DNA from: Theocolax elegans | Lineage: Eukaryota; Arthropoda; Insecta; Hymenoptera; Cerocephalidae | Reading direction: 5' to 3' | Length of the DNA: 64,000 nucleotides | Assembly (NCBI GenBank): GCA_026168455.1 | Contig: CM047426.1 | Span: 43,728,307-43,792,306, forward strand | Part shown: piece after piece, positions 28,716 through 64,000 of the stretch | Layout of the letters: each line of letters starts with the position of its first letter | Numbering within the stretch: position 1 is the first letter of the stretch | Program-made: the position numbers and the translations under genes | Notes under the pieces: model-generated | What the model saw: only the letters and a program-made list of their open reading frames with translations | What the model was told of the DNA's origin: nothing | Databases searched by the model: none

Positions 28716-28766
28716 GCTGTTCTCCAACGTTGTCCAACTACAATATGAATCGGAGTAGCGTGGCAC

Positions 28767-29160
28767 ATGCGCTCTGCAATCGGAGCGATAGCCCTCGTTA
28801 GGAACATCTTTGACGAACATAACGTTAGGTGCCATGCAACCAGGCCACTAGTTTTACTGGCTACGCTGGACGTTAGGAGCGCCTTTAATTCGGCGAGGTG
28901 GTTGGATATCCTGAAAGCGCTGAAAACAGCATTTCGGGTGCCCGACTACCTTCTCCGGGTTCTGAAGGACTAGTTGAGGAACCGACGTCTTACTTACGGA
29001 CCACTGACGGACGAAAAGACAGACGAATAACAGCAGGAGTCGCCCAGGGTTCCATTCTGGGGCTAGACTTCTGGAACATATTATATGACAGTCTTCTCCT
29101 AATGGAGATGCCGACGTACACATTCCTCGTCATAGATTTAGCTAAAGTTGAACCAGGTTA
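28767..29160 (+). pseudogene. R1-like LINE RT fragment, duplicate 1
   Basis: Palm segment with LLATLDVRSAFNSARW (catalytic Asp), RVLKD then TAG, LRNRRLTY, GVAQGSILG and DFWNILYDSLL. The segment carrying the ADD motif is deleted and the sequence jumps to the region QLKLNQ/GWM equivalent near 29140. Same TAG as duplicate 2. Confidence 0.85.
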
Positions 29161-29811
29161 TGCGGCGGGTGACTGGATGGATGAAGGATCCCGGACTGTA
29201 CGAGTTATTGCTTAGACCAAGGCTTCTACAGTCGATAAAGGACGCAGGGGACTTATCAGACCGACAGCACGGGTTTCGACAAGGACGCTCAACCATCGGA
29301 GCGATAACCTTTGTGAAAACCATTTTTGACAAACGTAACATCAGGTGCCACGCGACCAGGCCTCTGGTATTGCTGGCTACGTTGGACGTTAGGAGCGCCT
29401 TTAATTCGGCGAGGTGGGTGGATATCCTGGAAGCGTTGGCAACAGCATTTCGGGTGCCCGACTACCTTCTCCGGGTTCTGAAGGACTAGTTGAGGAACCG
29501 ACGTCTTACTTACGAGACCTTTGATGAACAAAAAGACAGACAAATAACCGCAGGAGTCGCCCAGGGTTCCATTCTGGGGCCAGATTTCTGGAACGTACTG
29601 TATGACAGTCTTCTCCGAATGTAGATGCCACGAACACATCCCTCGTCACTTACGCTGATGACGTTGCGGTCATCGTAGCCCGTGACACACGCCTGATTCA
29701 GCTAAAGCTGAACCAGATTATGCGTCGAGTGACTGGATGGATGAAAGACCACGGACTGCAACTTGCGTCACAAAAGACGGAACTTGTGCTTCTAAGTAGA
29801 CGAAGAATCGA
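29161..29811 (+). pseudogene. R1-like LINE RT fragment, duplicate 2 (with ADD motif)
   Basis: Repeats the palm: HGFRQGRSTIGAI, LLATLDVRSAFNSARW, the shared TAG after RVLKD (about 29487), GVAQGSILGPDFWN, and then in a shifted frame TYADDVAVIVARDTR with the catalytic Asp pair (about 29650-29690) and ELVLLSRRRI. It breaks at the target duplication 29797-29811. Confidence 0.87.
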
Positions 29812-29952
29812 GAACGAAACGCCTTTAATTATTTAAAAAGGCCGTGCTCTGGGAAATTTCACCAACCATAGTGGACAAAGAGTACGATAGGCCTGCTTTA
29901 TTCTAAAATAAAGCATTTAGTTCGGAGAGACCGATATTATATAATTTACACA
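29812..29952 (+). mobile_element. Solitary 5'-truncated hammerhead-repeat (retrozyme-like) insertion
   Basis: 141 bp matching the array unit at 55591-61260 from the last bases of hammerhead stem II (ACGAAACGCC) to AATTTACACA. It shares private variants with array unit 2 (GCCGTGCTCTGGGAAATTTC, CTTTATTCTAAAATAAAG). It is flanked by perfect 15 bp duplications TAGACGAAGAATCGA (29797-29811, 29953-29967), and the LINE coding sequence resumes after it. It has no poly(A). It ends within 2 nt of the 3' end of the big array. Confidence 0.92.
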
Positions 29953-29967
29953 TAGACGAAGAATCGA

Positions 29968-30931
29968 CACGGGGATACCGTTAACAGTCGGACTCGAACG
30001 CGTGGTGGTCCAAGACGAGGTCAAGTATCTAGGGATGACTCTGAATACGAAACTGATTTTCTGGCCTCACATACGCACGGTGACTAAAAAGGCACAAGAA
30101 AAGACAAAAGCCTTGAGCAGACTCATGGTTAATATGAACGGACCGAGACCGAGCACCCGACGTCTACTTATAAGCGTTACCCACTCGATCATGCTATATG
30201 GGGCGGAAATCTGGGCGGACGCATTACACGTTAAGAGACGGGCGAAAGCGATGACTAGCGTACAGCGGGTGGGCCCGTTAAGAATCGCGTGCGCGTACAA
30301 AACGGTGTCCGAAAACGCCGTTCTTGTTACCGCGGGCGTAATTCCGATCGACCTACTCGCGATGGAACGAAAGCGCATATACGATCGAAGCGCGGACACG
30401 GGGCGGGTTTACGCTGCGACAAACGAACGTACTAAAACCATGGAACTTTGGCAAACCCGGTGGACAAATAGCCAACAGGCGCAATGGACACGTAGACTTA
30501 TCCCTGCGGTTGCTCCGTGGAAGAGGAGAAAGCACGGTGAGGTAGACTTCTATCTCACCCAATTTTTCTCTGGACACGGATAATTCCGCGGCTATCTACA
30601 CAAGATGGGCAGACTTGCTTCACCTGAATGCAATTACTGCGGATGGGTCTATGATGACGCTGATCATACGTTCTTCGCCTGCAAGCGATGGGCAGATCAA
30701 CGTCAACGACTTGAAATGGACATAGAAGCGATCACTCCGGAAAACGTGACGAGACTTATGACGACGAACGCGGACAACCGGCGCCTGACCGCAAATTACG
30801 TTACGAATGTATTGCGGAGCAAAAAAGCAGATGGATGTCTGATAGATCGAGTAAATGTGATTCGAGAAGAAAAGAGTAAAAGGATGAATGTGTTTTTTGG
30901 ACACGCAAGACAGCCGCCCAGTCTGAAGTAA
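29968..30931 (+). pseudogene. R1-like LINE RT C-terminal region and CCHC domain
   Basis: After the insertion the frame continues through VKYLGMTLNTKL (thumb), RLLISVTHSIMLYGAEIW, ALHVKRRAKAM and the tail to a TAA at about 30581-30583. It then resumes in the next frame (30605-30931) with the R1-type C-terminal knuckle CNYCGWVYDDADHTFFAC. The 3' UTR follows to 31103. Confidence 0.88.
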
Positions 30932-35730: not shown

Positions 35731-36842
35731 TTCAGTGCAACCAGTAATTTCGCTATGTAAGCCGTCCTCACGCAAGGGAAGGACGATGGAGAACATCCAA
35801 TATCAGCTGGGTGTTAACGCCGGCCAAGGAAAACTATACGACGTCGGAAAAGGAGTCCTTACATCGAAGGCTACATTTTTACGGTCATTACTGACCATAG
35901 TACTCTTCGATATCTTCAAAATTTCAAGTTGAACTAACCAAACGGCGTACAAGCTTCCAGCACTAATTATCTGCTCACCAAATGCTTGTCATCTACCTAC
36001 TTCACTATTTTATCTTACTCCACGAACCGTAGCTTCAAATCAGTCTTTGCACTTATTTAGTCTCCATTCTGACGTGAGTCTCGAATATTTATTTTGATCT
36101 ATTACTTCATTATGGTTCTATCTACGAATTTACTTACTTACTTATTATTTTATATGCGATCACTGTTTTATTTAGTTGATACATAGTGTAATTTATATAT
36201 TTATTTGTTTAATCAATTTTAAGAATGCATTTTTTGTTATTATTTAAATTTTATTCGTTGTTTTTTATTATAGTTATTGTTATCTTGTTATATTGCTTTA
36301 TTTATTCTTTTTATTATTATTAACTTAAATCATTGTATCTTTTGTACTTTTGCGAGTTCATATTATCAATCAATCTCTCTCGCTATCTTCTTCTCGATCA
36401 CCCTTTCTCATCAGGAAGAGCACTGCACATTTTCTCTTGTACTATCAGATAGAAGTACAAAACGTGCAATTAATGGCAGCGTACCAGGTATTGTGATATG
36501 ATTAAAAAACTTATATTTGTGTAGCCTTCAATTAATCTGCAACATGAGATAACAGCACATTTCATATAAACAATAAAATAACTAAGAATTTCTCGATTGA
36601 CATATTTCTTTTCTCTCCCCCCCCCCCCCCCAATTACATTTTTTTTCCAAAATATTGACTTGCCTTTTAACTTGTCTGATGCACAAAAAATAAACCTCAT
36701 AGCTCTAAAATATATTTTATAATTCATATTTTATTTTAATGTATAAAAAATAAATGTGCATTTTAAGTTAGTTTGCAAATATATCGAGAGCAAAAATTAT
36801 TCTTTTGAAATGTTTGGGATTCATTTAAAAATTTGAACTAAC
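35731..36842. other. AT-rich spacer with a C homopolymer
   Basis: No gene recognised. An uninterrupted run of ~15-16 C at about 36616-36631 is notable as a likely sequencing problem spot. The part next to the kinase exon is presumably intron. Confidence 0.5.
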
Positions 36843-37123
36843 CTTTGTTAAGCTTTGCAACTCTCCTGTCGAGAATTTTGAAACAGTGGAATTTACTCTT
36901 AGGAAGTCAGCTAAATCTCCAAATGGCATATATTCACAAACTATACATGGACCATTATCCGTATCGCGTAGAATGACCCCAAGTAGTGTAAGTATGTTTT
37001 CATGACGGAACGTCGACATAATATCTACTTCACGTTGAAAGTTCTCTTCAGCTTCGCGACTTGCAGTATCTTTAAGCATTTTAATTGCTACAATTTCTCT
37101 AGAATTTTCACGAATAAGTTCCC
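36843..37123 (-). CDS. Receptor-tyrosine-kinase catalytic-domain exon
   Basis: A 281 nt exon bounded by an acceptor (AAATTTTCAG then GGGAAC at 37123) and a donor (AAAG then GTTAGT at 36842). It encodes the N-lobe of a tyrosine kinase: VAIKMLKD with the ATP-binding Lys, then the alpha-C helix ENFQREVDIM with its Glu, FRHENILTLLGV (beta-4) and PCIVCEYMPFGDLADFLR (hinge). Gly-loop and catalytic-loop exons are not seen nearby. The GDLADFLR hinge and HENI type fit Ror/MuSK/PTK7-like receptors, but I cannot place the subfamily. It is intact and the best evidence for a functional host gene here. Confidence 0.88.
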
Positions 37124-38681
37124 CTGAAAATTTGAGTTATATTTATTATAAAAAGTTATCTAAAAAGGTATTCCTTAGTGAGATATTACAAATTTATAAT
37201 CATGTGTCACTGATTCCGACTATAGAGCCTATAGAAATTAGTGCGTGATGATATTTAGAATAGAATTTTTAACTTTTTAATACTTGCAGCAACCGTACGG
37301 AACAACAAATCTAACCTTTATAGTTTGAAAACATGGTTATGCAGTGTGGACATATGAATTTTAACTTAGTGAATTAAGTTTAGCCGTAAATATGTGATAT
37401 TAGAAATATAATATATTTTTATTATTTCAAAAGCTGACTTTAAAAAAGAGCAATAAAAGTAAAAAATACTTTACGTTGAACAAATAATTTATTTTCGATA
37501 AAGTAATTCATACTTTTGACTAAATAGGAGGGAATAATAGAATAATGTACTTTTTTATATTTTATTTAAAATTTATTTTAATTTGTAACGGTAAACGAGT
37601 TATCAATCAGATAAGGAATGGAAAGCGAAAAGTTCGTGCTGCGCGCATACGCGGAAAGAGAAGAAATATCATGCGGCTAAACAGGCTTCTCGACAAAGGT
37701 CAAGCAGAGACAACCTTCGCCTCTCTAGGTTTGGTAATCAAACGGCTACCCAAGGCCGCACGTCGCGTTTGAGTTGGAGATATAACGGGTACGGGATTCA
37801 AATGTACTTGACCTCCGGGAAACGAATCTTATCTTAATATTAGTATATCTTTTATAATAGAAAATATGAAGAAAGCCAAGTTATCCCTTGCCAATGGCCA
37901 CTTTTACGAAAGTTATTCGACATTTAATAATAATATCAGTAAAAATTAGTTCCAAAATGATTGCTTATAACTCGGAAAAAAATAAAGATAGGCACTTAAA
38001 CCAAAAACCAGAAAAAAGTTGAGTTCAAGTAGATAGGGTTTGAGAAAAAAAGCATAAATTGCTTAATTTAGAATAAAGTTATGGAGAAAATAAGAAATTG
38101 AAGACATTTTAAACAAAATTTAATATGAAAAATTTATCGTTTCTTTTGGCCTAATAATCTTTAATTTCTTATTTACTTCATAACTTTACTGTCACTCGCC
38201 CATCAGCATAAATCACCATAAAACTCTCAGCAGTTATACCCATACAATTGTTAAACTGTGCCTTTACCTAATACGGACACAACAAAGTATGTATCTATGT
38301 AAAAGTATTGGTAGCTACATACAAGAATTGGGTTGACAAGTAAGGTTATGGTAACCATAACATTATAATAATTATCAACTAATTAAATCATATGGTATTC
38401 AATATAATAAACATTCCCTCCGGAGTTAGTTTATTACTTTAGAAGCAAGATGGAAACACCATCCGTCCCGTTTTGAACCTATCAACGGATAATCAGACAC
38501 GACAGAACGATGTATAACATATATCACCAGCTACTACAAAAATCGTCCTCGGCGTATTCACCGAGAGCCGCGAACTGACAGAACCGGTACGACGCCAACA
38601 TAGCAACGGCCTGTTTATTATCGCTATTTATGTAGTAAACTATATTAGAGTGTGTATGTGCTTGGTGTACATAGTACTTAC
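37124..38681. other. Presumed intron / intergenic
   Basis: AT-rich. A 75-codon plus-strand frame (37545-37772) is Arg/Lys-rich in its second half but shows no domain and is not called. A small acceptor-like site followed by FAALGEYAEDDF in minus sense occurs at about 38540-38590. Confidence 0.4.
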
Positions 38682-39487: not shown

Positions 39488-40563
39488 AATAAGTGCATTA
39501 TTAAGTGATTTTTTGTCGTCCATGCAGTGTATTTAGGAGTAGTGTAGGTTTTCCTCGATATTGATGAACAAACCATATTTATTTATTTGGCGACGTTTCG
39601 ATGGATATCCTCCATCCTCATCGGGCTATACCTTTTTATTAAAAAATGATTTCATTTTACAACATCTTTAAAACACAATTTTTACATATATAAATCTAAG
39701 TTACTTACTATTTCGTCAATATATAGGTATACAATATTATTAACAGCATCTCTGATGCGTCGCTCTATAATTGAAAACAATGATTAAAATAACAAACGTT
39801 TAACAATTTTTGCACAGAAATTGAGGTTATATATAACATACCTTTCCCCTATTGTTGTGTCCATAATCAACACAAAAAATTGAAAATTAAATAAATACTT
39901 GAAGAACATTACAAAATAAATTAACACATAATCACACAAATTAAGCAAAAGGCAGTCAAATATTAAAATAAAGCTAACAATGTATATCACAGACGGTTAA
40001 TACTGAAAAATTTGAAATCTCACGTCCCCCGTTTTCAGAGACACCTATGCGATCAATCTTAATCAGATCGACAACACAGTCATCCCCACCACAGGCGCGA
40101 AACTTCAAATTAAGTACATTATGTTTACTGATAAGTAATAAAAATTAATAAATTATTTATGATTATTTACAAGAGAACTCAAAAAAATTTTTTTAAAACT
40201 AAATTAAAATTTACCATTTCAATAAAAAAATTTTTTTTTTCCCCCGTTGAAACAAATAATAATTGGTAATAAAAATTAAAAAAATTAAATTTAAGTAGTT
40301 AAGTATTTTATTAAATTTTAAATATAGTAGATTAACTAAACAATTTTTATAATAATGAATAATCTTTTAATTATGAACCTAATTGAGAAGAAATTATAAA
40401 AAAAAAACCAAAAATATATATTTGAATTTACCGGGCCGCGCATCGTGCAAGACACAATACGCGCAGTAAGAATCGATCAACACGCAAGTCAATCACTCAC
40501 CTTATCCAAACATCTGATCGATATATATTGATTTGAGGTTATGTCATAGGGGAGAGATACACA

Positions 40564-41118
40564 TTATAATTTAGATTTTAATTTAATACTATTGATAATG
40601 TCACTGTAATGTTGGCTAAGACGTCTAGTATCGTCTTTGCAATTGATCGCATTATGTTGCAGATTTATGTGGATCATTTCTGATAATACTCGTTTTTTCA
40701 AAAATTGCCTTGTCCACCAATGTATATACCATAGCCCGCTTCTGCTGTATTGTATGACTAGATTCAAAATGTAAAAATCGTCCTGAAAAGGTATCTTTCA
40801 CATACCAATTAGTAATAACTTTTCTATTTTCATTTCTTATTAGTGATACCTCTAAAAAACTTATATAACCATTATTCTCTTTTTCATGAGTGAACTGCAA
40901 TTTCTCATGGTAGTTATTGAAAACTTCAATTACATTTGTTAATTTATTTTCGGGAATACACATAATTGTATCATCCACATATCTGTAATAGAACGGTGGA
41001 ATAAAATCTAATTTTTTGAGACAGTATTGCTCCAAATCTGTCATAACAATATCAGCAAAAATCGGGCTTACCGGGCTGCCCATAGGACTTCCATATAGTT
41101 GTTGATAAAATTTATTAT
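40564..41118 (-). pseudogene. Penelope-like RT, minus arm, internally deleted
   Basis: From about 41083: MGSPVSPIFADIVM, then YRYVDDTIM with the catalytic Asp pair, YISFLEV and VYTLVDKAIF. Then a deletion joins directly to the extreme C-terminus (RVLSEMIHINLQHNAI...), removing the linker and the GIY-YIG nuclease. The junction shifts the frame (overlapping frames 41083-40652 and 40767-40564). Confidence 0.88.
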
Positions 41119-41132
41119 CCTATTGAAAGTAA

Positions 41133-42400
41133 GTGTTGCGCATCAAAAATTGGATGTTCCAGAAGAATTCTAATGTTCCAGAAGAATTAGTTCTTAAAGG
41201 TATTGAAAAAAGATACCATTTAATAAGAAAAATACATAATGTTTCTCTACATGAATTAATTGAAGCAGTAAAATTTTTGATGCGCAAGACTTCCTTTAAA
41301 TGGGATAATAAATTTTAACAACAACTATATGGATGTCCTATGGGCATCCCGGTAAGCCCGATTTTTGCTGATATTGTTATGACAGATTTGGAGCGATACT
41401 GTCTCAAAAAATTAGATTTTATTCCACCGTTCTATTACAGATATGTGGATGATACAATTATGTGTATTCCCGAAAATAAATTAACAAATGTAATTGAAGT
41501 TTTCAATAACTACCATGAGAAATTGCAGTTCACTCATGAAAAAGAGAATAATGGTTATATAAGTTTTTTAGAGGAATCACTAATAAGAAATGAAAATAGA
41601 AAAGTTATTACTAATTGGTATGTGAAAGATACCTTTTCAGGACGATTTTTACATTTTGAAACTAGTCATACAATACAGCAGAAGCGGGCTATGGTATATA
41701 CATTGGTGGACAAGGCAATTTTGTTAGCACATGAAAAATTTCATGGAACCAATATTAAACTAGTCAAAGAATTTTTAAAAAATAATTGTTACCCAAAAAA
41801 GTTTATAAATCATAGTGTAAGAAAAAGATTAGAGAAAATAAAATATAGTTCTAGTCATAACAATGATCAAGTTAATAATAGAGTAGTAACTAATTATAAA
41901 GCAACTTTAAATATTCCTTTTATTCCTAAATTTTATGAAAAAATATCTGGTTCTATGAAGGGCAAAGCTATGAAAGTTATACCTAAAATTTATAATAAAA
42001 TTGATGGTGTTATTGTGAGGGGCAAAGATAAAATAGACAAATTAACTAAAACTAATGTAGTGTATAAAATAGATTGTAAAGATTGTAATGCTAGTTATGT
42101 GGGTGAAACAAAGAGACAAGTAAAATGTCGTATTAAAGAACATAAAGCTAATATAAACAAAACTGAGTCGCACTATGTAATCAATGAACATATGCTCGCA
42201 TATGATCATTCGTTAGATTTTGACAACGTCAAATACTTGATACTGAAAAGAATTGGAAAAAACGAGTATTATCAGAAATGATCCACATAAATCTGCAACA
42301 TAATGCGATCAATTGCAAAGACGATACTAGACGTCTTAGCCAACATTACAGTGACATTATCAATAGTATTAAATTAAAATCTAAATTATAATGTGTTTCT
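41133..42400 (+). pseudogene. Penelope-like RT plus GIY-YIG endonuclease, plus copy 1 (5' truncated)
   Basis: Starts mid-RT (VPEELVLKGIEKRYHLI...; TAA near 41318), then 41340-42281 open: GIPVSPIFADIVM, YRYVDDTIM (catalytic), HFETSHTIQQKRAM, a lysine-rich linker and a GIY-YIG nuclease: VVYKIDCKDCNASYVGETKR, CRIKEH, then SHYVINEHMLAYDHSLDF. The C-terminal end (SEMIHINLQHN) is shifted out of frame near 42230-42280. RT and GIY-YIG together define Penelope-like elements. Confidence 0.92.
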
Positions 42401-42639
42401 CTCCCCTATGACATAACCTCAAATCAATGTATATCGATCAGATGTTTGGATAAGGTGAGTGATTGACTTGCGTGTTGATCGATTCTTACTGCGTGTATTG
42501 TGTCTTGCACGATGCGCGGCCCGGTAAATTCAAATATATATTTTTGGTTTTTTTTTTTAATTTCTTCTCAATTAGGTTCATAATCAAAAGATTCTTCATT
42601 ATTATAAAAATTGTTTAGTTAATCGGAATACTATAATGT

Positions 42640-44050
42640 ACATTTATGTAATAGAAACGGTAATAAAATCTAATTTTTTGGACAGTATTGCTCCAAATCG
42701 TCATAACAATATCAGCAAAACTCGGGCTTACCGGGCTGCCAAGGACTTCCATCTAGTGTTGATAAATTTTTATCTATTGAAAGTAAGTGTTGCGCATCAA
42801 AAATTGGATGTTCCAGAAGAATTTAATGTTCCAGAAGAATTAGTCTTAAAGGTATTGAAAAAAGGATACCATTTATAAGAAAAAAAAAAATATAATGTTT
42901 CTCTACAGATTAATTGAAGCAGTAAAAATTTTTGATGCGCAAGACTTCCTTTAAATGGGATAATAAATTTTAACAAACAACTATATGGATGTCCTATGGG
43001 CATCCCCGGTAAGCCCCGATTTTTGCCTGATATTGTTATGACAGATTTGGAGCGATACTGTCTCAAAAAATTAGATTTTATTCCACCGTTCTATTACAGA
43101 TATGTGGATGATACAATTATGTGTATTCCCGAAAATAAATTAACAAATGTAATTGAAGTTTTCAATAACTACCATGAGAAATTGCAGTTCACTCATGAAA
43201 AAGAGAATAATGGTTATATAAGTTTTTTAGAGGAATCACTAATAAGAAATGAAAATAGAAAAGTTATTACTAATTGGTATGTGAAAGATACCTTTTCAGG
43301 ACGATTTTTACATTTTGAAACTAGTCATACAATACAGCAGAAGCGGGCTATGGTATATACATTGGTGGACAAGGCAATTTTGTTAGCACATGAAAAATTT
43401 CATGGAACCAATATTAAACTAGTCAAAGAATTTTTAAAAATAATTGTTACCCAAAAAAGTTTATAAATCATAGTGTAAGAAAAAGATTAGAGAAAATAAA
43501 ATATAGTTCTAGTCATAACAATGATCAAGTTAATAATAGAGTAGTAACTAATTATAAAGCAACTTTAAATATTCCTTTTATTCCTAAATTTTATGAAAAA
43601 ATATCTGGTTCTATGAAGGGCAAAGCTATGAAAGTTATACCTAAAATTTATAATAAAATTGATGGTGTTATTGTGAGGGGCAAAGATAAAATAGACAAAT
43701 TAACTAAAACTAATGTAGTGTATAAAATAGATTGTAAAGATTGTAATGCTAGTTATGTGGGTGAAACAAAGAGACAAGTAAAATGTCGTATTAAAGAACA
43801 TAAAGCTAATATAAACAAAACTGAGTCGCACTATGTAATCAATGAACATATGCTCGCATATGATCATTCGTTAGATTTTGACAACGTCAAAATACTTGAT
43901 ACTGAAAAGAATTGGAAAAAACGAGTATTATCAGAAATGATCCACATAAATCTGCAACATAATGCGATCAATTGCAAAGACGATACTAGACGTCTTAGCC
44001 AACATTACAGTGACATTATCAATAGTATTAAATTAAAATCTAAATTATAA
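42640..44050 (+). pseudogene. Penelope-like RT plus GIY-YIG endonuclease, plus copy 2
   Basis: A near-repeat of 41000-42400 that includes the inverted joint (42650-42790 is the antisense RT start). 42996-43466 encodes the RT palm with YRYVDD; a one-base loss near 43440 shifts the frame; 43613-44050 encodes the linker, GIY-YIG nuclease and the natural C-terminus ending SIKLKSKL. The first ~400 bp carry many single-base indels relative to copy 1, while the rest is almost identical. Confidence 0.9.
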
Positions 44051-45080
44051 TGTGTTTCTCTCCCCTATGACATAACCTCAAATCAATGTATATCGATCAG
44101 ATGTTTGGATAAGGTGAGTGATTGACTTGCGTGTTGATCGATTCTTACTGCGTGTATTGTGTCTTGCACGATGCGCGGCCCGGTAAATTCAAATATATAT
44201 TTTTGGTTTTTTTTTTTTAATTTCTTCTCAATTAGGTTCATAATCAAAAGATTCTTCATTATTATAAAAATTGTTTAGTTAATCTACTATATTTAAAATT
44301 TAATAAAATACTTAACTACTTAAATTTAATTTTTTAAATTTTTATTACCAATTATTATTTGTTTCAACGGGGGAAAAAAAAAATTTTTTTATTGAAATGG
44401 TAAATTTTAATTTAGTCTTAAAAAAATTTTTTTGAGTTCTCTTGTAAATAATCATAAATAATTTATTAATTTTTATTACTTATCAGTAAACATAATGTAC
44501 TTAATTTGAAGTTTCGCGCCTGTGGTGGGGATGACTGTGTTGTCGATCTGATTAAGATTGATCGCATAGGTGTCTCTGAAAACGGGGGACGTGAGATTTC
44601 AAATTTTTCAGTATTAACCGTCTGTGATATACATTGTTAGCTTTATTTTAATATTTGACTGCCTTTTGCTTAATTTGTGTGATTATGTGTTAATTTATTT
44701 TGTAATGTTCTTCAAGTATTTATTTAATTTTCAATTTTTTGTGTTGATTATGGACACAACAATAGGGGAAAGGTATGTTATATATAACCTCAATCTCTGT
44801 GCAAAAATTGTTAAACGTTTGTTATTTTAATCATTGTTTTCAATTATAGAGCGACGCATCAGAGATGCTGTTAATAATATTGTATACCTATATATTGACG
44901 AAATAGTAAGTAACTTAGATTTATATATGTACAAATTGTGTTTAAAAGATGTTGTAAAATGAAATCATTTTTTAATAAAAAGGTATAGCCCGATGAGGAT
45001 GGAGGATATCCATCGAAACGTCGCCAAATAAATAAATATGGTTTGTTCATCAATATCGAGGAAAACCTACACTACTCCTA
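44051..45080 (+). repeat. Penelope-like 3' UTR / terminal region (mirrored at 39531-40563)
   Basis: About 1 kb non-coding segment present as an inverted copy at 39531-40563, so it forms the long arms of the inverted repeat. It contains a short open frame (44624-44830) mirrored at 39990-39784; it is hydrophobic and probably not translated. It ends GAAAACCTACACTACTCCTA at the target duplication. Confidence 0.85.
44990..45019 (+). ncRNA. Hammerhead-like core motif near Penelope-like end (tentative)
   Basis: CCGATGAG, then GATGG/CCATC around AGGATAT, then CGAAAC resembles the hammerhead core CUGANGA-stem II-GAAA with U4 changed to C. The inverted copy is at 39594-39625. I find no convincing stem III or cleavage triplet, so activity is doubtful. 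Penelope-like elements of other animals are known to carry hammerheads in their terminal repeats. Confidence 0.35.
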
Positions 45081-45094
45081 AATAAGTGCATTAT

Positions 45095-52279: not shown

Positions 52280-53105
52280 CTATCCCGCGGCCTGGCGTCG
52301 ACCCTCGCGTTTTTTACGCGGCCTACCTCTATTTCTTTTAACGGGGGGCACGACATTCGCGTTATCTCGTTCCCCGCGTGGAACGGCGCTCGCTTGCGCC
52401 TCGCCGCGTGAGACGTCTTCGCTCGCAGGAACCGTGTCGCGTTCGGGTTCTTCTTCCCTCGTAGGTAGATCGGTCTCGATATCGTCTTGTTGGCCGTACT
52501 CATCGCCATGGTCATCCGATAAGTACGGTTTGAGGTACTGGACATGGCATTTCTCCTCATGTCCCTGGGTATCCTGGATCTTAACAGTATTTGGGCCGTA
52601 ACTGTGGACAATCAAATAAGGACCGACGTATTTTGGAGTTAACTTGGCTGAGATGCCTTGTGCGCTGGATGAGAGGACTCGGTTCTTCTTCCATACCAAG
52701 TCCCCGACTTCAAAAGAAGCCGCTCGTCTCCCGGCATTATAGTAACCGGCTTGCCTATCCTGAGCTTTATTAGCTCTAGCTGAAGCTTTCTTGTAAAGCT
52801 TACGTAGTCGTGATAGCCGATCACTCCACACAAGCAAACGCTGGTGTTCCAAACGTTGCTGAGTCAACTCGTCTTGAACTCAACGAGCAGTGCCGGGTGG
52901 CTGAGGCTGGCGGCCGTAATTTAACATGACCGGGCTCCATCCTGTCGAACTCTGTACCGCCGTATTTAAAGCAAACACAAGTAGTGGTACGGAGGAATAG
53001 TTGTATGAAATATTCCTCGTTCCACGAGACAATTATCTACGAGCTTGTTCTTGAACTCAGTGCCATTGTCGGATAAAAATACTTCCGGTGTGCCAAAACG
53101 CATGA
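52280..53105 (-). pseudogene. Gypsy integrase remnant: core fragment and GPY/F C-terminus
   Basis: From 53103: FGTPEVFLSDNGTEFKNK (second catalytic Asp of the DDE core) and HTTIPPYH. A further deletion removes the Glu region and joins to FALNTAVQSSTGWSP. After a stop near 52880 the frame 52867-52280 carries the helical linker, DLVWKKNR and KLTPKYVGPYLI (GPY/F module), then an acidic/basic tail ending in an AT-hook-like RGRPRKKR. No complete catalytic triad. Confidence 0.85.
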
Positions 53106-53109
53106 CGAC

Positions 53110-54465
53110 TCATCCTTCTAGTGTCTCCTTCCTCCTCCTAAACTGAGGAGGAGACTTGTGGGTTTTCTTCCAAGGTGGCGTATCTTTATCCACCTTAACC
53201 CCAGCTATCTGGCTACTCGTTCGCATGGTCCTAAGGGATTCTTCCAGGACTTTTGTGGGCCGTTCAATCCGATCTTCCCGACTCGACTCGCTCACCTCCT
53301 TAGCCACGCTTGCTACCTTGGGCTTGGCGGTTGACCGCTTTTTGGACTTTGCCTTGTAAGCAAGTTTCGGCAGCATTAAATCTGCCTCTGCTGGAGGCGG
53401 TCGATATAACTTTTCCCGCTCGAGCGTTTGTTCGGCGTTCATCGCCAGCTCCAATAAATCTTCAACCGATTTGGCTTCAGCCCTCTTAAACAACCGCTTA
53501 AGCTGAGGTAGCATGTTACGGTAGAGATGGTCCAATTGCCTACGCTCGCTCGGGATCGGGTTGAGTTTTCGCATGATTGCGATTGAGCAGGTGATGTAAT
53601 TTCTCACCGGCTCATCCTTACCCTGTGTCCGAGCATTGGACTCCTCGATGAGCCTTTGCTAAAAGCTTTGGCTCATTCCGTACCATTTCTTGGCAGATTT
53701 CACAAAATCTTGCCACGAGTGCCATTTGTCCTTCTCATTTCGGTACCACGTAGTTGCGGTTCCAGTGAGTAGTTCGGACAAGGACGGCAACACCTCGTCC
53801 TCGCTGAGGTTGGCGAGAATCCTACAGTCTTCGACTCTTGCAAGGAAGGCATCGATACTCTGGCTTTTGTCGCCAGAGAATCGGACTCCCCACTTACGAA
53901 CCACCGCACCAACGTCGCGCGGTGTCCCGGCCGATCTCGACGTTGATTGGTCGGACTCGTAAAAGTCCTTCAGATTTAGGTAGGGAGAGCTTGAACGTGA
54001 AGGCTGTCTCAGTCTCCGTATGTCACCCCTCCCCCAAGCTCCTCCAGCATTTGCATGAAGTGCTTGAGACCCCTCAGGCTCTACCTGCACGTGTTGTGGT
54101 CTGATGTCCGTCTCGTCCAGGATGTAACACGTATAGGTGTCCTGAAACTGTACATGTTGGGTTGGCTCCCGGGTATTGTTTAAGCTGGAAGCTTGTGCAC
54201 CGTTTGGCAAGTCCAACTTGCCGTTGACGGTGTGCATCTGTACTTCCAGCTCCTTAACCCGTTCCGTCAAGGTGGATAATTTACTTATTTGCTCCGCTAA
54301 CATCGAAGCAAAATTCTTTGGTATCTCGAACTGAGCGCCAGTATCGGATACCAAAGTTATCCATTCCTCCTTGTCGGTTTCTTGGTCGGAGGTGTCGAAC
54401 TGCCCATCTTCCTCTCGCTCGTCCGTATCTTCTACATCTAGAGCGAGATTTTTGGGTAATGCCAC
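53110..54465 (-). pseudogene. Gypsy Gag (one in-frame stop)
   Basis: One frame from 54465 to 53110 interrupted by TAG at 53659-53661. N-terminal acidic region (about 10-35), a heptad helix LSTLTERVKELEVQM, a Ser-rich linker and then the Gag core: FLARVEDCRILANLS, LLTGTATTWYRNEKDKW, WQDFVKSAKKWYG before the stop and RNYITCSIAIMRKL, LYRNMLPQLK, SVEDLLELAMNAE after it. No ATG at 54465 (codon is GTG), so the true start lies upstream or is lost. No zinc knuckle seen before the deletion point. Confidence 0.82.
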
Positions 54466-54600
54466 AAAGATGAAAGGGGGGTACCAATTTCTCCGTATGA
54501 ACTACAAAGCGATACTGAAAATGCATGGGATTCGATAATTTTTGATCACGCACATCAAACGAGTGTAAGTACAGAAAAATCGAGAACCGATTATACTTAA

Positions 54601-55577: not shown

Positions 55578-55926
55578 AGTATACAGTGTAATTTGAAATA
55601 AAATGAATTTATCGTTCGGTGATATTTATATGTGTAAATTATATAATATCGATCTCTCCGAACTAAATGCTTTATTTTAGATTAAAGCAGGCCTATCGTA
55701 CTCTTTGTCCACTATGGTTGGTGGAATATAAATATCACCGAACGATAAATTCATTTTATTTCAAATAACTTGCGACTTGGTCTATTACGTCGCACTCTGG
55801 TTGGTGGTTTTTCCCACCACCAGATGGAGACGACTATCTCCCTACACTCGTTGGAGAGATCGTCGTCTTTTTTCTATATATATAGCCGCAGAACATCGAG
55901 CTGGCGTCGCCGTTCATCTTGCGCCA

Positions 55927-55993
55927 GGCGTCGAAGGTAAGATCTCCAGTTCCTTACTGAGGAGTCAAAGCTGGAGATCGAGGACGAAACGCC
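55927..55993 (+). ncRNA. Hammerhead ribozyme, unit 1 (variant)
   Basis: Core CTGAGGA, GAAA and the GTC triplet present. Stem I starts GAAGG (first pair lost) and stem II is GTCA/GGAC (3 bp). Probably weakened. Confidence 0.8.
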
Positions 55994-56330
55994 TTTAATT
56001 ATTTTAAAAGGCCGTACTCTGGGAAATTCCACCAACCATAGTGGACAAAGAGTACGATAGCCCTGCTTTAATATAAAATAAAGCATTTAGTTCGGAGAGA
56101 CCGATATTATATAATTTACACATATACATATCACCGAACGATAAATTCATTTTATTTCAAATAACTTGACTCTGGGTCTAGTACGTCGCACTCTGGCTAG
56201 TGGTTTTTCCCACCACCAGATGGAGACGACTATCTCTCTACACTCGTTGGAGAGATCATCGTCTCTTTTCTATATATAGCCGCAGAATATCTTGCTGGCG
56301 TCGCGGTTCACCTTGCGACAGGCGTCTAAG

Positions 56331-56397
56331 GTAAGATCTCCAGTTCCTTACTGAGGAGTCCAAGCTGGAGATCGAGGACGAAACGCCTTTAATTATT
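56331..56397 (+). ncRNA. Hammerhead ribozyme, unit 2 (consensus)
   Basis: Stem III GGCGT/ACGCC, cleavage predicted after GTC at 56336, stem I TAAGG/CCTTA, CTGAGGA, stem II GTCC/GGAC, GAAA. Loop I GATCTCCAG and loop II CTGGAGATC are perfectly complementary. Confidence 0.93.
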
Positions 56398-56714
56398 TAA
56401 AAAGGCCGTGCTCTGGGAAATTTCACCAACCATAGTGGACAAAGAGTACGATAGGCCTGCTTTATTCTAAAATAAAGCATTTATTTCGGAGAGACCGATA
56501 TTATATAATTTACACATATAAATATCACCGAACGATAAATTCATTTTATTTCAAATAACTTGCGACTGGGTCTAGTACGTCGCACTCTGGCTGGTGGTTT
56601 TCCCCACCACCAGATGGAGACGACTATCTCTCTACACTCGTTGGAGATCATCGTCTCTTTTCTATATATATAGCCGCAGAATATCTTGCTAGCCTCGCGG
56701 TTCATCTTGCGACA

Positions 56715-56781
56715 GGCGTCTAAGGTAAGATCTCCACTTCCTTACTGAGGAGTCCAAGCTGGAGATCGAGGACGAAACGCC
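56715..56781 (+). ncRNA. Hammerhead ribozyme, unit 3
   Basis: All core and stems intact; loop I reads GATCTCCAC (one loop-loop pair lost). Almost identical to unit 4. Confidence 0.92.
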
Positions 56782-57110
56782 TTTAATTATTTAAAAAGGC
56801 CGTACTCTGGGAAATTCCACCAACCATAGTGGAGAAAGAGTACGATAGGCCTGCTTTAATCTAAAATTAAGCTTTTAGTTCGAAGAGACCGATATTATAT
56901 TATTTACACATATAAATATCACAGAACGATAAATTAATTTTATTTCAAATAACTTGCGACTCGGTCTAATACGTCGCACTCTGGCTGGTGGTTTTTCCCA
57001 CCACTAGATGGAGACGACTATCTCTCTACACTCGTTGGAGATCATCGTCTCTTTTCTATATATATATAGCCGCAGAATATCTTGCTAGCCTCGCGGTTCA
57101 TCTTGCGACA

Positions 57111-57177
57111 GGCGTCTAAGGTAAGATCTCCACTTCCTTACTGAGGAGTCCAAGCTGGAGATCGAGGACGAAACGCC
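57111..57177 (+). ncRNA. Hammerhead ribozyme, unit 4
   Basis: All core and stems intact; loop I GATCTCCAC. Confidence 0.92.
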
Positions 57178-57505
57178 TTTAATTATTTAAAAAGGCCGTA
57201 CTCTGGGAAATTCCACCAACCATAGTGGAGAAAGAGTACGATAGGCCTGCTTTAATCTAAAATTAAGCTTTTAGTTCGAAGAGACCGATATTATATTATT
57301 TACACATATAAATATCACAGAACGATAAATTAATTTTATTTCAAATAACTTGCGACTCGGTCTAATACGTCGCACTCTGGCTGGTGGTTTTTCCACCACT
57401 AGATGGAGACGACTATCTCTCTACACTCGTTGGAGATCATCGTCTCTTTTCTATATATATATAGCCGCAGAATATCTTGCTAGCGTCGCGGTTCATCTTG
57501 CGACA

Positions 57506-57572
57506 GGCGTCTAAGGTAAGATCTCCAGTTCCTTACTGAGGAGTCCAAGCTGGAGATCGAGGACGAAACGCC
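57506..57572 (+). ncRNA. Hammerhead ribozyme, unit 5 (consensus)
   Basis: All core, stems and the 9 nt loop-loop complementarity intact. Confidence 0.93.
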
Positions 57573-57903
57573 TTTAATTATTTTAAAAGGCCGTACTTTG
57601 GGAAATTCCACCAACCACAGTGGACAAAGACTACGATAGGCCTGCTTTAATATAAAATAAAGCATTTAGTTCGGAGAGACCGATATTATAAAATTTACAC
57701 ATATAAATATCACCGAACGATAAATTCATTTTATTTCAAATAACTTGCGACTCGGGTCTAGTACGTCGCACTCTGGCTGGTGGTTTTTCCCCACCACCAG
57801 ATGGAGACGACTATCTCCCTACACTCGTTGGAGAGATCATCGTCTCTTTTCTATATATATAGCCGCAGAATATCTTGCTAGCGTCGCGGTTCATCTTGCG
57901 ACA

Positions 57904-57970
57904 GGCGTCTAAGGTAAGATCTCCACTTCCTTACTGAGGAGTCCAAGCTGGAGATCGAGGACGAAACGCC
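57904..57970 (+). ncRNA. Hammerhead ribozyme, unit 6
   Basis: All core and stems intact; loop I GATCTCCAC. Confidence 0.92.
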
Positions 57971-58299
57971 TTTAATTATTTAAAAGGCCGTACTCTGGGA
58001 AATTCCACCAACCATAGTGGACAAAGAGTACGATAGGCCTGCTTTAATCTAAAATAAGCATTTTAGTTCGAAGAGACCGATATTATATAATTTACACATA
58101 TAAATATCACCGAACGATAAATTCATTTTATTTCAAATAACTTGCGACTCGGTCTAATACGTCGCACTCTGGCTGGTGGTTTTTCCCCACCACTAGATGG
58201 AGACGACTATCTCTCTACACTCGTTGGAGATCATCGTCTCTTTTCTATATATATATAGCCGCAGAATATCTTGCTAGCGTCGCGGTTCATCTTGCGACA

Positions 58300-58366
58300 G
58301 GCGTCTAAGGTAAGATCTCCAGTTCCTTACTGAGGAGTCCAAGCTGGAGATCGAGGACGAAACGCC
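58300..58366 (+). ncRNA. Hammerhead ribozyme, unit 7 (consensus)
   Basis: All core, stems and loop-loop complementarity intact. Confidence 0.93.
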
Positions 58367-58695
58367 TTTAATTATTTTAAAAGGCCGTACTCTGGGAAAT
58401 TCCACCAACCACTAGTGGACAAAGACTACGATAGGCCTGCTTTAATCTAAATTAAGCATTTTAGTTCGGAGAGACCGATATTATAATATTTACACATATA
58501 AATATCACCGAACGATAAATTAATTTTATTTCAAATAACTTGCGACTCGGTCTATACGTCGCACTCTGGCTGGTGGTTTTTCCCACCACCAGATGGAGAC
58601 GACTATCTCCCTACACTCGTTGGAGAGATCATCGTCTCTTTTCTATATATATAGCCGCAGAATATCTTGCTAGCGTCGCGGTTCATCTTGCGACA

Positions 58696-58762
58696 GGCGT
58701 CTAAGGTAAGATCTCCAGTTCCTTACTGTGGAGTCCAAGCTGGAGATCGAGGACGAAACGCC
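58696..58762 (+). ncRNA. Hammerhead ribozyme, unit 8 (core mutant)
   Basis: Core reads CTGTGGA: the invariant A of CUGANGA is T, so self-cleavage should be lost. Stems intact. Confidence 0.88.
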
Positions 58763-59092
58763 TTTAATTATTTTAAAACGCCGTACTTTGGGAAATTCCA
58801 CCAACCATAGTGGACAAAGAGTACGATAGCCCTGCTTTAATATAAAATAAAGCATTTAGTTCGGAGAGACCGATATTATATAATTTACACATATACATAT
58901 CACCGAACGATAAATTCATTTTATTTCAAATAACTTGCGACTCGGGTCTAGTACGTCGCACTCTGGCTGGTGGTTTTTCCCCACCACCAGATGGAGACGA
59001 CTATCTCCTCTACACTCGTTGGAGATCATCGTCTCTTTTCTATATATATAGCCGCAGAATATCTTGCTAGCCTCGCGGTTCATCTTGCGACA

Positions 59093-59159
59093 GGCGTCTA
59101 AGGTAAGATCTCCACTTCCTTACTGAGGAGTCCAAGCTGGAGATCGAGGACGAAACGCC
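59093..59159 (+). ncRNA. Hammerhead ribozyme, unit 9
   Basis: All core and stems intact; loop I GATCTCCAC. Confidence 0.92.
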
Positions 59160-59486
59160 TTTAATTATTTTAAAAGGCCGTACTCTGGGAAATTCCACCA
59201 ACCATAGTGGAGAAAGAGTACGATAGGCCTGCTTTAATCTAAAATTAAGCTTTTAGTTCGGAGAGACCGATATTATATTATTTACACATATAAATATCAC
59301 AGAACGATAAATTAATTTTATTTCAAATAACTTGCGACTCGGTCTAATACGTCGCACTCTGGCTGGTGGTTTTTCCCACCACCAGATGGAGACGACTATC
59401 TCTCTACACTCGTTGGAGATCATCGTCTCTTTTCTATATATATAGCCGCAGAATATCTTGCTAGCGTCGCGGTTCATCTTGCGACA

Positions 59487-59553
59487 GGCGTCTAAGGTAA
59501 GATCTCCAGTTCCTTACTGTGGAGTCCAAGCTGGAGATCGAGGACGAAACGCC
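59487..59553 (+). ncRNA. Hammerhead ribozyme, unit 10 (core mutant)
   Basis: Same CTGTGGA core change as unit 8 and the same neighbouring variant (AAAACGCCGTACTTTGG). Confidence 0.88.
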
Positions 59554-59882
59554 TTTAATTATTTTAAAACGCCGTACTTTGGGAAATTCCACCAACCATA
59601 GTGGACAAAGAGTACGATAGCCCTGCTTTAATATAAAATAAAGCATTTAGTTCGGAGAGACCGATATTATATAATTTACACATATACATATCACCGAACG
59701 ATAAATTCATTTCATTTCAACTAACTTGCGACTCGGTCTATTACGTCGCACTCTGGCTGGTGGTTTTTCCTACCACCAGATGCAGACGACTATCTCCCTA
59801 CACTCGTTGGAGATATCATCGTCTCTTTTCTATATATATAGCCGCAGAATATCTTGCTAGCGTCGCGGTTCATCTTGCGACA

Positions 59883-59949
59883 GGCGTCTAAGGTAAGATC
59901 TCCACTTCCTTACTGAGGAGTCCAAGCTGGAGATCGAGGACGAAACGCT
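59883..59949 (+). ncRNA. Hammerhead ribozyme, unit 11
   Basis: Core intact; stem III is GGCGT/ACGCT with a terminal G-U pair; loop I GATCTCCAC. Confidence 0.9.
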
Positions 59950-60276
59950 TTTAATTATTTTAAAAGGCCGTACTCTGGGAAATTCCACCAACCATAGTGG
60001 AGAAAGAGTACGACAGGCCTGCTTTAATCTAAAATTAAGCTTTTAGTTCGGAGAGACCGATATTATATTATTTACACATATAAATATCACAGAACGATAA
60101 ATTAATTTTATTTCAAATAACTTGACTCTGGGTCTAGTACGTCGCACTCTGGCTAGTGGTTTTTCCCACCACCAGATGGAGACGACTATCTCTCTACACT
60201 CGTTGGAGAGATCATCGTCTCTTTTCTATATATAGCCGCAGAATATCTTGCTGGCGTCGCGGTTCACCTTGCGACA

Positions 60277-60343
60277 GGCGTCTAAGGTAAGATCTCCAGT
60301 TCCTTACTGAGGAGTCCAAGCTGGAGATCGAGGACGAAACGCC
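60277..60343 (+). ncRNA. Hammerhead ribozyme, unit 12 (consensus)
   Basis: All core, stems and loop-loop complementarity intact. The surrounding unit is almost identical to unit 13. Confidence 0.93.
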
Positions 60344-60671
60344 TTTAATTATTTTAAAAGGCCGTACTCTGGGAAATTCCACCAACCATAGTGGACAAAG
60401 AGTACGATAAGCTTGCTTTAATCTAAAATTAAGCTTTTAGTTCGGAGAGACCGATATTATATTATTTACACATATAAATATCACCGAACGATAAATTAAT
60501 TTTATTTCAAATAACTTGCGACTCGGTCTAATACGTCGCACTCTGGCTGGTGTTTTTCCCACCTCCAGATGGAGACGACTGTCTTTCTACACTCGTTGGA
60601 GAGATCGTCGTCTTTTTTCTATATATATAGCCGCAGAATATCTTGCTGGCGTCGCGGTTCACCTTGCGACA

Positions 60672-60738
60672 GGCGTCTAAGGTAAGATCTCCAGTTCCTT
60701 ACTGAGGAGTCCAAGCTGGAGATCGAGGACGAAACGCC
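60672..60738 (+). ncRNA. Hammerhead ribozyme, unit 13 (consensus)
   Basis: All core, stems and loop-loop complementarity intact. Confidence 0.93.
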
Positions 60739-61066
60739 TTTAATTATTTTAAAAGGCCGTACTCTGGGAAATTCCACCAACCATAGTGGACAAAGAGTAC
60801 GATAAGCTTGCTTTAATCTAAAATTAAGCTTTTAGTTCGGAGAGACCGATATTATATTATTTACACATATAAATATCACCGAACGATAAATTAATTTTAT
60901 TTCAAATAACTTGCGACTCGGTCTAATACGTCGCACTCTGGCTGGTGTTTTTCCCACCTCCAGATGGAGACGACTGTCTTTCTACACTCGTTGGAGAGAT
61001 CGTCGTCTTTTTTCTATATATATAGCCGCAGAACATCGAGCTGGCGTCGCAGTTCATCTTGCGACA

Positions 61067-61133
61067 GGCGTCTAAGGTAAGATCTCCAGTTCCTTACTGA
61101 GGAGTCAAAGCTAGAGATCGAGGACGAAACGCC
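61067..61133 (+). ncRNA. Hammerhead ribozyme, unit 14 (variant)
   Basis: Core and stem I intact; stem II GTCA/GGAC as in unit 1; loop II CTAGAGATC (one loop-loop mismatch). Confidence 0.85.
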
Positions 61134-61273
61134 TTTAATTATTTTAAAGGGCCGTACTCTGGGAAATTCCACCAACCATAGTGGACAAAGAGTACGATAG
61201 CCCTGCTTTAATATAAAATAAAGCATTTAGTTCGGAGAGACCGATATTATATAATTTACAAGTATACAGTGTA

Positions 61274-62097: not shown

Positions 62098-62868
62098 AAA
62101 ATGCCAGATAACGACGTAATTAGGGATCTCAAAGCCCAACGGGGTGTAGTTAAAACTAAAAAAAAAATCATGAATTTTCTAAACGATACTTCAAATATGG
62201 AAAGAAAAACGGAGATTAAAGTAAGGTTAGTATGAATCGAACCACTTTTAAATGAATTTGAAAATTTTACAAAACAAATTGACGCGATTACCGTAGATCA
62301 AACTAATAAATTTGACGATTTCGAAAGGGTATTTTATAAAATTATAAATAAGGCATACGATTTAATAGAGAATCAAAATGTAGTTAGACCACAAGCTATA
62401 TGCGTTATGAATGCAAATTTAAATGAAGATTCACAGCTTCGTCTACCGCCTATTGAATTTACTACGTTCGACGGTGCATTCGATAAATGGCTATCCTTTT
62501 CTATACAATTCAATTCAATGGTTTACGTTAATTTTAGCATAAACACTATTCAGAAACTATATTATTTAAAGAGTTGCTTAAAAAAAGAAGCTGAAGATAT
62601 TATAAGTTTACCCGAATTAATTGAGGAAAATTATAAAGTCTCACTACAACTATTAAAAGAGCGTTACGGCATCAAACGCATTATTATTCAAAAGCACGTT
62701 AGGACTCTTATGATTTTAGTATTGATTAATAGAGAATCTGCGCATGATCTGCGCAAATTCATCGATTTAATTAATGAGCATTTACGCGCTCTTAAGTCAT
62801 TAGGTCCACCCAATGAATCATGAGACACGTTATTAATTCATTCACTCACGACTAAATTAGATCGTGCT
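62098..62868 (+). pseudogene. BEL/Pao (second family) Gag, DUF1759-type, with stops
   Basis: An ATG at 62098 opens MPDNDVIRDL, broken by TGA near 62233. The frame 62407-62823 holds the DUF1759-type core: LPPIEFTTFDGAFDKWLSFS, QKLYYLKSCLKKEAEDII, LLKERYGIKRIIIQKHV, LRKFIDLINEHLRALKSLG. It ends in TGA at 62821-62823; the same frame continues with DTLLIHSLTTKLD. Sequence differs clearly from the 19-25 kb BEL/Pao, so it is another family and on the opposite strand. Confidence 0.85.
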
Positions 62869-62879
62869 TCGCATCAAGA

Positions 62880-63383
62880 ATGGGAAAAAAATCAGTTACC
62901 GATGCGGAAATACCGAATATGAAGGAGTTTATGTCGTTTTCGGTACAACGTTGTCCAGTTTTCCGGGTAACAAGTATCAACCTTCCTGCCAAAATAAACG
63001 TATCCGCAAAACCTAATAGCGGAAAAAACAAGTGTGAAACGTTAAGAGCACTTCAAGTCGAAGAACGTCTTGGAAGTGTAAAATCAAGCAATCTATGCTT
63101 TAATTGTTTACGCCCTGGCCACGTGAATTCTGATTGTAAATGGTCAGGCTGTAAAAAATGCGGTAAGAAGCAGAATACGATGCTTTACTACGAGGTAAAA
63201 GAAATTAATAAAGTAAGTAGCGGTCACTCAATTACTGAGCAACAAGAAACGTTAACCACAAATTTTAATGGTCTAGTCAGCAAAGCTCGCAACGCACATA
63301 TTTCACCACAATCAGTGCTTTCGACTGCCGTGGTTAATGTAAAAAATAAGGGCGGAAAGCTCGTGCAAACTCGCGTTTATTAG
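62880..63383 (+). pseudogene. BEL/Pao (second family) zinc-knuckle region
   Basis: C-terminal Gag with LCFNCLRPGHVNSDC and a second Cys-rich stretch CKKCGKKQNT. The frame terminates at 63381-63383; one base out of frame, LLDSGAQFNFI (retropepsin active site with the DSG triad) begins at about 63375, so a frameshift separates Gag and protease. Confidence 0.85.
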
Positions 63384-64000
63384 ATAGTGGAGCTCAGTTC
63401 AATTTTATAATGGAACGAATTGTTCAAACAAGTGCCGCAGAAACAAATTGATATTCAAGTAGAAACGTTGAATCAAGTAGAAACGCGCGTAAAACATTCA
63501 GTGCAAGTTGAAATCCAATCACGATGCACAAACTATAAAGAAAATCTCGATTTCCTTGTGTTACCGAATATTTGCAATCATTTACCAAGTGAGTTCATTG
63601 ATAAACGTATTATTAGCATACCGCAAAGAAAACCGTTAGCTGACCCCGAATTCAATAAACCAAAGGAAATTGATGCGCTAATAGGAGTTGTATTATTTTA
63701 TCACTTGCTATCCGTTGGACAAGAAAAGATACCAGGATTCACAGCTTTGTGGCAAGAAACAAAGCTAGGTCGGATACTGGCCTGTAAAATTAACGCGCTC
63801 AATCAGTTGCTAAAATCTACTCAATGCATGCTTGTATTTCACGCCCTCCATAAAGCGATTAACAAATTTTGAAAAATAGAAGAGGTAGAAAGCAAGAAAG
63901 TTTTATCCGGAGAGGAGTATAAAGTCGGGCAGCATTTTAAAAATACTACCGCGCGTGACCATGTTACGGGTCAATATACGGTAATATTACCCTTTAATGA
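63384..64000 (+). pseudogene. BEL/Pao (second family) protease and RT start, cut by window
   Basis: The frame 63420-63872 contains LDFLVLPNICNHLPSEFID and IDALIGVVLFYHLL (protease C-terminal motif) and ALWQETKLGRILA. After a TGA near 63870 the RT N-terminal segment (KNTTARDHVTGQYTVILPF) runs to the edge. Confidence 0.82.

Follow-up and report, generated by a model that had tools for sequence, protein, structure and literature searches.

What is a tandem array of hammerhead ribozyme-like sequences doing in a wasp genome, and how did it arrive there? The array lies in a 64,000-nucleotide stretch of Theocolax elegans DNA (GenBank assembly GCA_026168455.1, contig CM047426.1, positions 43,728,307 to 43,792,306 of the forward strand; hereafter the window, with position 1 its first letter). 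Our results suggest that it is probably a non-autonomous retrozyme, whose RNA would cut itself into monomers of ~395 nt that are circularised and then reverse transcribed, likely by Penelope-like machinery, starting in or beside a predicted hairpin loop. An earlier note on this DNA had placed fourteen hammerhead units at 55591..61260. Using Tandem Repeats Finder, we recognized a single array at 55726-61260 (plus strand) with a period of 394, 14.0 copies and 95% matches. The fourteen non-coding units of ~395 bp were thus recovered, whereas the coordinates had to be corrected, as 55591-55727 is an inverted partial unit outside the array. The predicted cleavage sites split the array into 13 full units of 394-398 bp, a left partial unit and a right partial unit. 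The unit has a guanine-plus-cytosine (GC) content of 42% and is without coding capacity, the longest open frame being 66 codons around the unit 2 circle.

The hammerhead motif was examined base by base. The conserved core of hammerhead ribozymes follows a standard consensus and numbering, in which core position 4 is a U and A6 an adenine. The strands of a type III hammerhead were present in 14/14 units in the order that had been claimed for them, with helix III open and a GUC cleavage site, an assignment with which the type III model of Rfam agrees, below its curated threshold. With G-U counted as a pair, the core was complete and helices I, II and III were fully paired in 10 of the 14 motifs, all on the plus strand: motif 2 (56321..56387), 3 (56715..56781), 4 (57111..57177), 5 (57506..57572), 6 (57904..57970), 7 (58300..58366), 9 (59093..59159), 11 (59883..59949), 12 (60277..60343) and 13 (60672..60738). 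Nine of these consist of Watson-Crick pairs only, and in the tenth, motif 11 (unit 59889), helix III contains one G-U pair, so that the count of nine intact units in the earlier note is right if this unit is excluded. The same ten motifs matched Rfam RF00008 (type III) over the full length, with E values of 3.6e-5 to 8.5e-5 and scores of 35.2-36.5 bits, when 7001 bases were searched with the models of 4227 families. The pattern CTGANGA-N(8-38)-GAAAC occurs 13 times in the window, including 12 times inside the array, compared with 1.0 expected from shuffles.

Loops I and II, each 14 nt long, share a further feature. Positions 4-12 of loop I are the reverse complement of positions 4-12 of loop II (GATCTCCAG and CTGGAGATC; in unit 2 at 56335..56343 and 56365..56373, respectively, plus strand), the match being 9/9 in eight units and 8/9 in six. 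When loops were shuffled, a complement of 9 or more was obtained in 14 of 100,000 trials. As a control, a core with a GTCC/GGAC stem II was sought in viral and prokaryote collections, which gave at least 120 and at least 117 stretches, respectively. Parsing of 237 loci from phages and prokaryotes yielded 106 type III-like motifs, in which the longest loop-loop run did not exceed 3 nt (3 nt in 11 motifs, 2 in 27, 1 in 64 and 0 in 4). This control is a weak one, as in 54 of these motifs both loops measure 4 nt, too little for 9 pairs, and the loop shuffles are the fairer test. Published hammerheads also display contacts between these stems. Several of the papers cited here and below by PubMed Central (PMC) number are cited for individual passages. 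In a passage of PMC3088659, stems I and II are expected to make base-paired contact in about 40% of the hammerheads described, and a type II motif is reported to slow when such contacts are broken; type III motifs from termite and toad have a short contact between the loops of stems I and II (PMC7936874, in part).

The 9-nt complement can also pair in a nested form, and of the folds predicted for the 67-nt region this one has the lowest energy, at -26.7 kcal/mol. If loop contact is disregarded, the hammerhead with its three helices comes to -11.3 kcal/mol, to which the 9-bp duplex may contribute up to about -14. The locked and hammerhead states are therefore similar in predicted energy. We infer that the 9-bp helix may serve as a two-way switch, acting either as a kissing contact between the loops or, when folded into a nested hairpin, as a lock on the ribozyme. 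When folded as circles, 13/13 full units were predicted to be stabler than their shuffles (40 each), with z-scores of -4.1 to -7.8, and in the circle of unit 2, the one circle fold inspected, the ribozyme was in the locked state.

Concerning how the array came to lie at this locus, an exact 13-bp duplication, AGTATACAGTGTA, flanks the insertion at 55578..55590 on the left and 61261..61273 on the right. In a test for duplications abutting the two sites, 13 bp was reached by 1/2000 random site pairs. A looser test, based on the longest shared word anywhere in the flanks and in which 3/500 random pairs reached the observed lengths, is superseded by this result. The inverted partial unit (55591..55727, minus strand) follows the left duplication and precedes the direct units; it covers unit positions 94-230, with its outer end at 230. 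A solo, 5'-truncated copy of 141 bases was present at 29812..29952 (plus strand), flanked by target-site duplications of 15 bp at 29797..29811 and 29953..29967. It lies in the reverse transcriptase of a long interspersed nuclear element (LINE), the frames of which are in pieces at 28000-30931 (plus strand). The solo copy splits the reverse transcriptase frame, which is open again without the insert and one duplication. The solo copy differs from unit 2 at one of 139 aligned bases, and the family has therefore likely moved recently. The target-site duplications and the second, dispersed copy mark the array as a retrotransposed insertion, for which the reading as a plain satellite falls short.

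The ends of the two insertions were then placed on the unit. The array ends on the right at unit position 188 and the solo copy at 190, so that their 3' ends agree to within 2 nt, while the inverted part has its outer end at 230, 42 nt away from position 188. The direct part starts at unit position 190 and thus makes whole turns of the unit minus one base, which could be what is left by copying a circle, or a coincidence. Position 188 is inside a predicted hairpin loop in 13/13 full units; such loops hold 10-20% of the unit nucleotides. The loop sequence is AAUUUACAC in five units, UAUUUACAC in five and another in three, and in unit 2 the predicted hairpin, with loop AAUUUACAC, spans 56497..56526 (plus strand). 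Neither the array nor the solo copy has a poly(A) or simple-repeat tail. As the insert crosses 14 cleavage sites, the template was presumably a circular RNA or an uncut multimer. Reverse transcription was presumably target-primed, from both sides.

This anatomy resembles that of Penelope-like elements. One such element has been shown to begin reverse transcription internally in its RNA, within an AC-rich stem-loop; there are two start sites, and the distance between them corresponds to the 30-40 bp tail (PMC11167929). As described in parts of PMC3846280, Penelope has an inverted pseudo-LTR (LTR, long terminal repeat), a 31-bp tail, a TATATATA box and duplications of 8-10 bp, and moves a foreign gene in trans; for its inverted copies, self-priming is the explanation preferred there. 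The T. elegans array and these elements have in common tandem and inverted copies, target-site duplications, one end longer by 30-40 bp, a start near a stem-loop and a TATATATA run (PMC11167929; PMC3846280, in part). Corresponding to the Penelope anatomy, the array has an inverted part at one end, ends 42 nt apart and a 13-bp duplication. The TATATATA run begins 56-60 nt upstream of the cleavage site at 14/14 sites (56271..56278, plus strand, before that of motif 2), and that it acts as a promoter would be a guess. Penelope-like elements differ in carrying a frame for reverse transcriptase and GIY-YIG, whereas the unit is non-coding, and their published hammerheads, in the passages concerned of PMC11167929 and PMC3846280, are minimal type I motifs, not type III. 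By analogy with these elements, the helper of the array may well be Penelope-like. Penelope-like helpers have also been proposed for animal retrozymes from common features and coexistence (PMC7229834, in part).

The same retrozyme might instead have been moved by LINE machinery, through ordinary target-primed reverse transcription accompanied by 5' truncation and 5' inversion. The duplications of 13-15 bp, the truncation and the inverted 5' part fit this as well, hammerhead repeats of Nematostella have LINE-like duplications of 15 bp (PMC4918200, in part), and LINEs are present in the window, including a further one with RVT_1 at 2795-3799. However, the array and the solo copy both lack a tail of either kind, and ends that are 42 nt apart, one of them in a hairpin loop, fit the pair of Penelope start sites better (PMC11167929). 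We regard LINE machinery as somewhat unlikely.

A Penelope-like element, representing the candidate type of helper, is present in the window at 39502..45084 and is flanked by a duplication of ~14 bp (39488-39501 and 45081-45094). In one frame its reverse transcriptase matches just below the Pfam cut-off and its GIY-YIG domain above it; the best named match of this frame is an ant (40%), Trichogramma pretiosum reaches the same value, and a beetle and a fly are lower. The element has an inverted copy on the left with inverted arms of 1173 nt, partial tandem copies, and a tail of 28-32 nt at the left end only. Read on the sense strand, the left tail is ATG GAC GAC AAA AAA TCA CTT and could form the start of the frame of the element itself. 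A hammerhead-like sequence, CCGATGAGGATGGAGGATATCCATCGAAACGTC, was seen in both arms, at 44990 (plus strand) and 39624 (minus strand). A type I hammerhead was considered here and rejected, as the sequence has CCGATGA where CTGATGA would be expected, core position 4 being C rather than U, and no Rfam hammerhead matched.

Taken together, the retrozyme would move as follows. A transcript of the array would cut itself at the type III motifs, giving the predicted monomers of ~395 nt, which a host ligase would circularise. The complementary loops would kiss while the RNA is being synthesized, and would then lock the ribozyme as a nested hairpin in the finished circle. Reverse transcription would start in or beside the predicted hairpin loop of the unit RNA, at a nicked chromosomal site, and would likely be performed by the machinery of a Penelope-like element.

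Several results weigh against this interpretation. Four of the 14 motifs (plus strand) are damaged: motif 1 (55927..55993; unit 55933) has one mismatch each in helices I and II, motif 14 (61067..61133; unit 61073) has one mismatch in helix II, and motifs 8 (58696..58762; unit 58702) and 10 (59487..59553; unit 59493) have the core CTGTGGA, in which A6 is changed. The RF00008 scores are under the gathering score of 48.5 bits, and a scan of the whole window at the Rfam gathering threshold returned nothing. The lack of a match above the threshold is, taken strictly, one of the two joint grounds on which the earlier note would reject the ribozyme, while the E value speaks against chance. The hammerhead columns were less variable than the rest of the unit (6/68 compared with 56/334 variable columns), a difference in the right direction that is not significant (p 0.14), and no compensatory changes were found among the variable hammerhead columns. 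The locked hairpin, and not the hammerhead, is both the minimum-energy and the centroid fold of the region. As for the proposed machinery, the end of the solo copy at 190 is one base beyond the predicted loop of unit 2, and the duplications found here (13-15 bp) exceed the 8-10 bp of Penelope (PMC3846280, in part). In addition, no similarity beyond chance was found between the unit and the terminal sequence of the neighbouring Penelope-like element (836/1000 shuffles scored as well), so that one has to postulate a common structure or a different Penelope-like family.

The fold and the Rfam scores would agree with the idea that there is no ribozyme at all, the nested 9-bp hairpin with its outer stem being the conserved feature and the hammerhead core a coincidence. 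The core and three helices nevertheless occur in the right order with an E value of 3.6e-5 in the search described above, and the core pattern was observed 13 times against 1.0 expected. A coincidental core is very unlikely in our judgement.

The conservation result bears on another explanation, in which a retroposed fragment was later expanded into an ordinary satellite by unequal exchange and now carries relic ribozymes that give no self-cut RNA. The array is a mosaic of unit subfamilies that are ~95% identical. The near-identity, within this mosaic, of the neighbouring units 3 and 4 (56721-57511; about 100%) and units 12 and 13 (60283-61072; 99%) is a sign of local duplication or conversion. 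The extremes of the array are also alike, unit 14 being closest to unit 1 and the left partial unit closest to unit 13. Taking into account these outermost parts and the near-identical neighbours, some growth after insertion is likely. Set against expansion of relics are the intact motifs, 10 of 14, and the solo copy, whose single difference from unit 2 indicates recent movement. We consider this explanation unlikely.

We also considered whether the array might derive from an infectious circular RNA, viroid-like or delta-like, that was copied into the genome. Delta-like RNAs of termite and toad have type III hammerheads with base-paired loops (PMC7936874, in part), and the circle of the unit is predicted to be highly self-paired. 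On the other hand, no minus-strand ribozyme was found in the unit by Rfam search or motif parsing, whereas such RNAs have ribozymes in both polarities according to passages of PMC7936874 and PMC11721086, and a viroid-like origin was judged unlikely for this reason. Furthermore, an open frame of 66 codons is the longest available, a scan of viral contigs with two exact unit-specific patterns gave no match, and two insertions with nearly the same 3' end indicate a resident retroelement. An infectious origin is accordingly given hardly any weight here.

The retrozyme interpretation was compared with known systems. Animal retrozymes are described in PMC7229834, in the passages concerned, as carrying type I hammerheads in units of 170-400 nt. 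Like these metazoan non-LTR retrozymes, the T. elegans element consists of a short non-coding unit in tandem, with a hammerhead in each unit, a GC content below 50% and a highly self-paired RNA. It agrees with the published description in having tandem units within 150-450 bp, a GC content below 50% and target-site duplications longer than 4 bp, and departs from it in ribozyme type, type III here against type I there. The unit 2 circle is predicted to hold its ribozyme locked, whereas most animal retrozyme circles leave it free, and the ends of the insertions provide direct evidence on where reverse transcription starts, unlike the retrozymes in those passages of PMC7229834. The unit would thus act like a metazoan retrozyme, yet falls outside the printed definition of that family on ribozyme type.

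Plant LTR retrozymes share with the unit a type III hammerhead and a ribozyme predicted to be blocked in the circle, but have a dimeric LTR layout with a 4-bp duplication (PMC4918200, in part) where we found 14 tandem units and a 13-bp duplication. Their unit of ~700 bp with a GC content over 55% (PMC7229834, in part) also differs from the 395 bp and 42% seen here. In the portions of PMC7936874 concerned, type III motifs are reported from two termite genomes, where they are isolated, and from several dipterans, while structure-based searches gave no similar type III motifs in hymenopterans. Those termite, dipteran and delta-like motifs resemble ours in their animal source, their type and a Watson-Crick contact between the loops of helices I and II. 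There, helix I is long, has an extra hairpin and takes part through an internal loop in a contact of ~4 nt; here, two terminal loops of 14 nt could form 8-9 pairs. The termite genomic motifs stand alone, whereas ours are in tandem within an insertion. The usual type III loops, given in the same source as 6-8 nt for loop I and 4 nt for loop II, are shorter than the 14-nt loops of the unit. The pDo500 satellite of Dolichopoda cave crickets is likewise an insect tandem repeat with a hammerhead, and differs in that stem III folds in one motif and that in the dimeric form stems I and II are common to both copies; the passages of PMC2837043 concerned describe no insertion anatomy.

In the open PubMed Central literature we found no description of the unit or of an animal type III retrozyme; unpublished or subscription work may exist, and a passage of PMC7761336 lists insects among the holders of elements with type III hammerheads, citing work in preparation. 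We advance only tentatively the possibility that this is the first animal type III retrozyme, and the first retrozyme in Hymenoptera: a Penelope-moved RNA circle with a start in a hairpin loop and a 9-bp two-way switch that allows cutting during transcription and locking thereafter. If the ribozyme cleaves, the element breaks, within a mobile element, the printed divide between animal retrozymes of type I and plant retrozymes of type III. The evidence from the insertion ends makes the Penelope hypothesis directly testable: it comprises two end sites separated by 42 nt, one end within a predicted hairpin loop, an inverted copy, and a solo copy whose pre-insertion site can be identified. The loop-loop complement is a simple possible answer to how a self-cutting RNA could remain a stable circle.

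Other sequences in the window include a second tandem repeat at 8029-8803 (199 bp, 3.9 copies), in which no ribozyme match was found at the Rfam gathering threshold. Retroelement frames are present at 52280-54501 (minus strand), with a Tf2-1-like SH3 domain at 52280-52879, and at 62236-63872 (plus strand), with DUF1759 at 62236-62823. For a LINE frame, the best named match is an ant (34% identity). A frame at 36825-37136 (minus strand) resembles, by eye, an exon of a receptor tyrosine kinase and perhaps belongs to a host gene. A BEL/Pao element at 19734-25044 (minus strand) has several frames with Peptidase_A17, DUF5641 and an H2C2 zinc-binding domain. Among the best 120 of 4800 matches to its frame, the top named ones came from Trichogramma kaykai (57% identity) and also from a sweat bee and from ants, in agreement with a hymenopteran source, and damselfly and beetle were lower.

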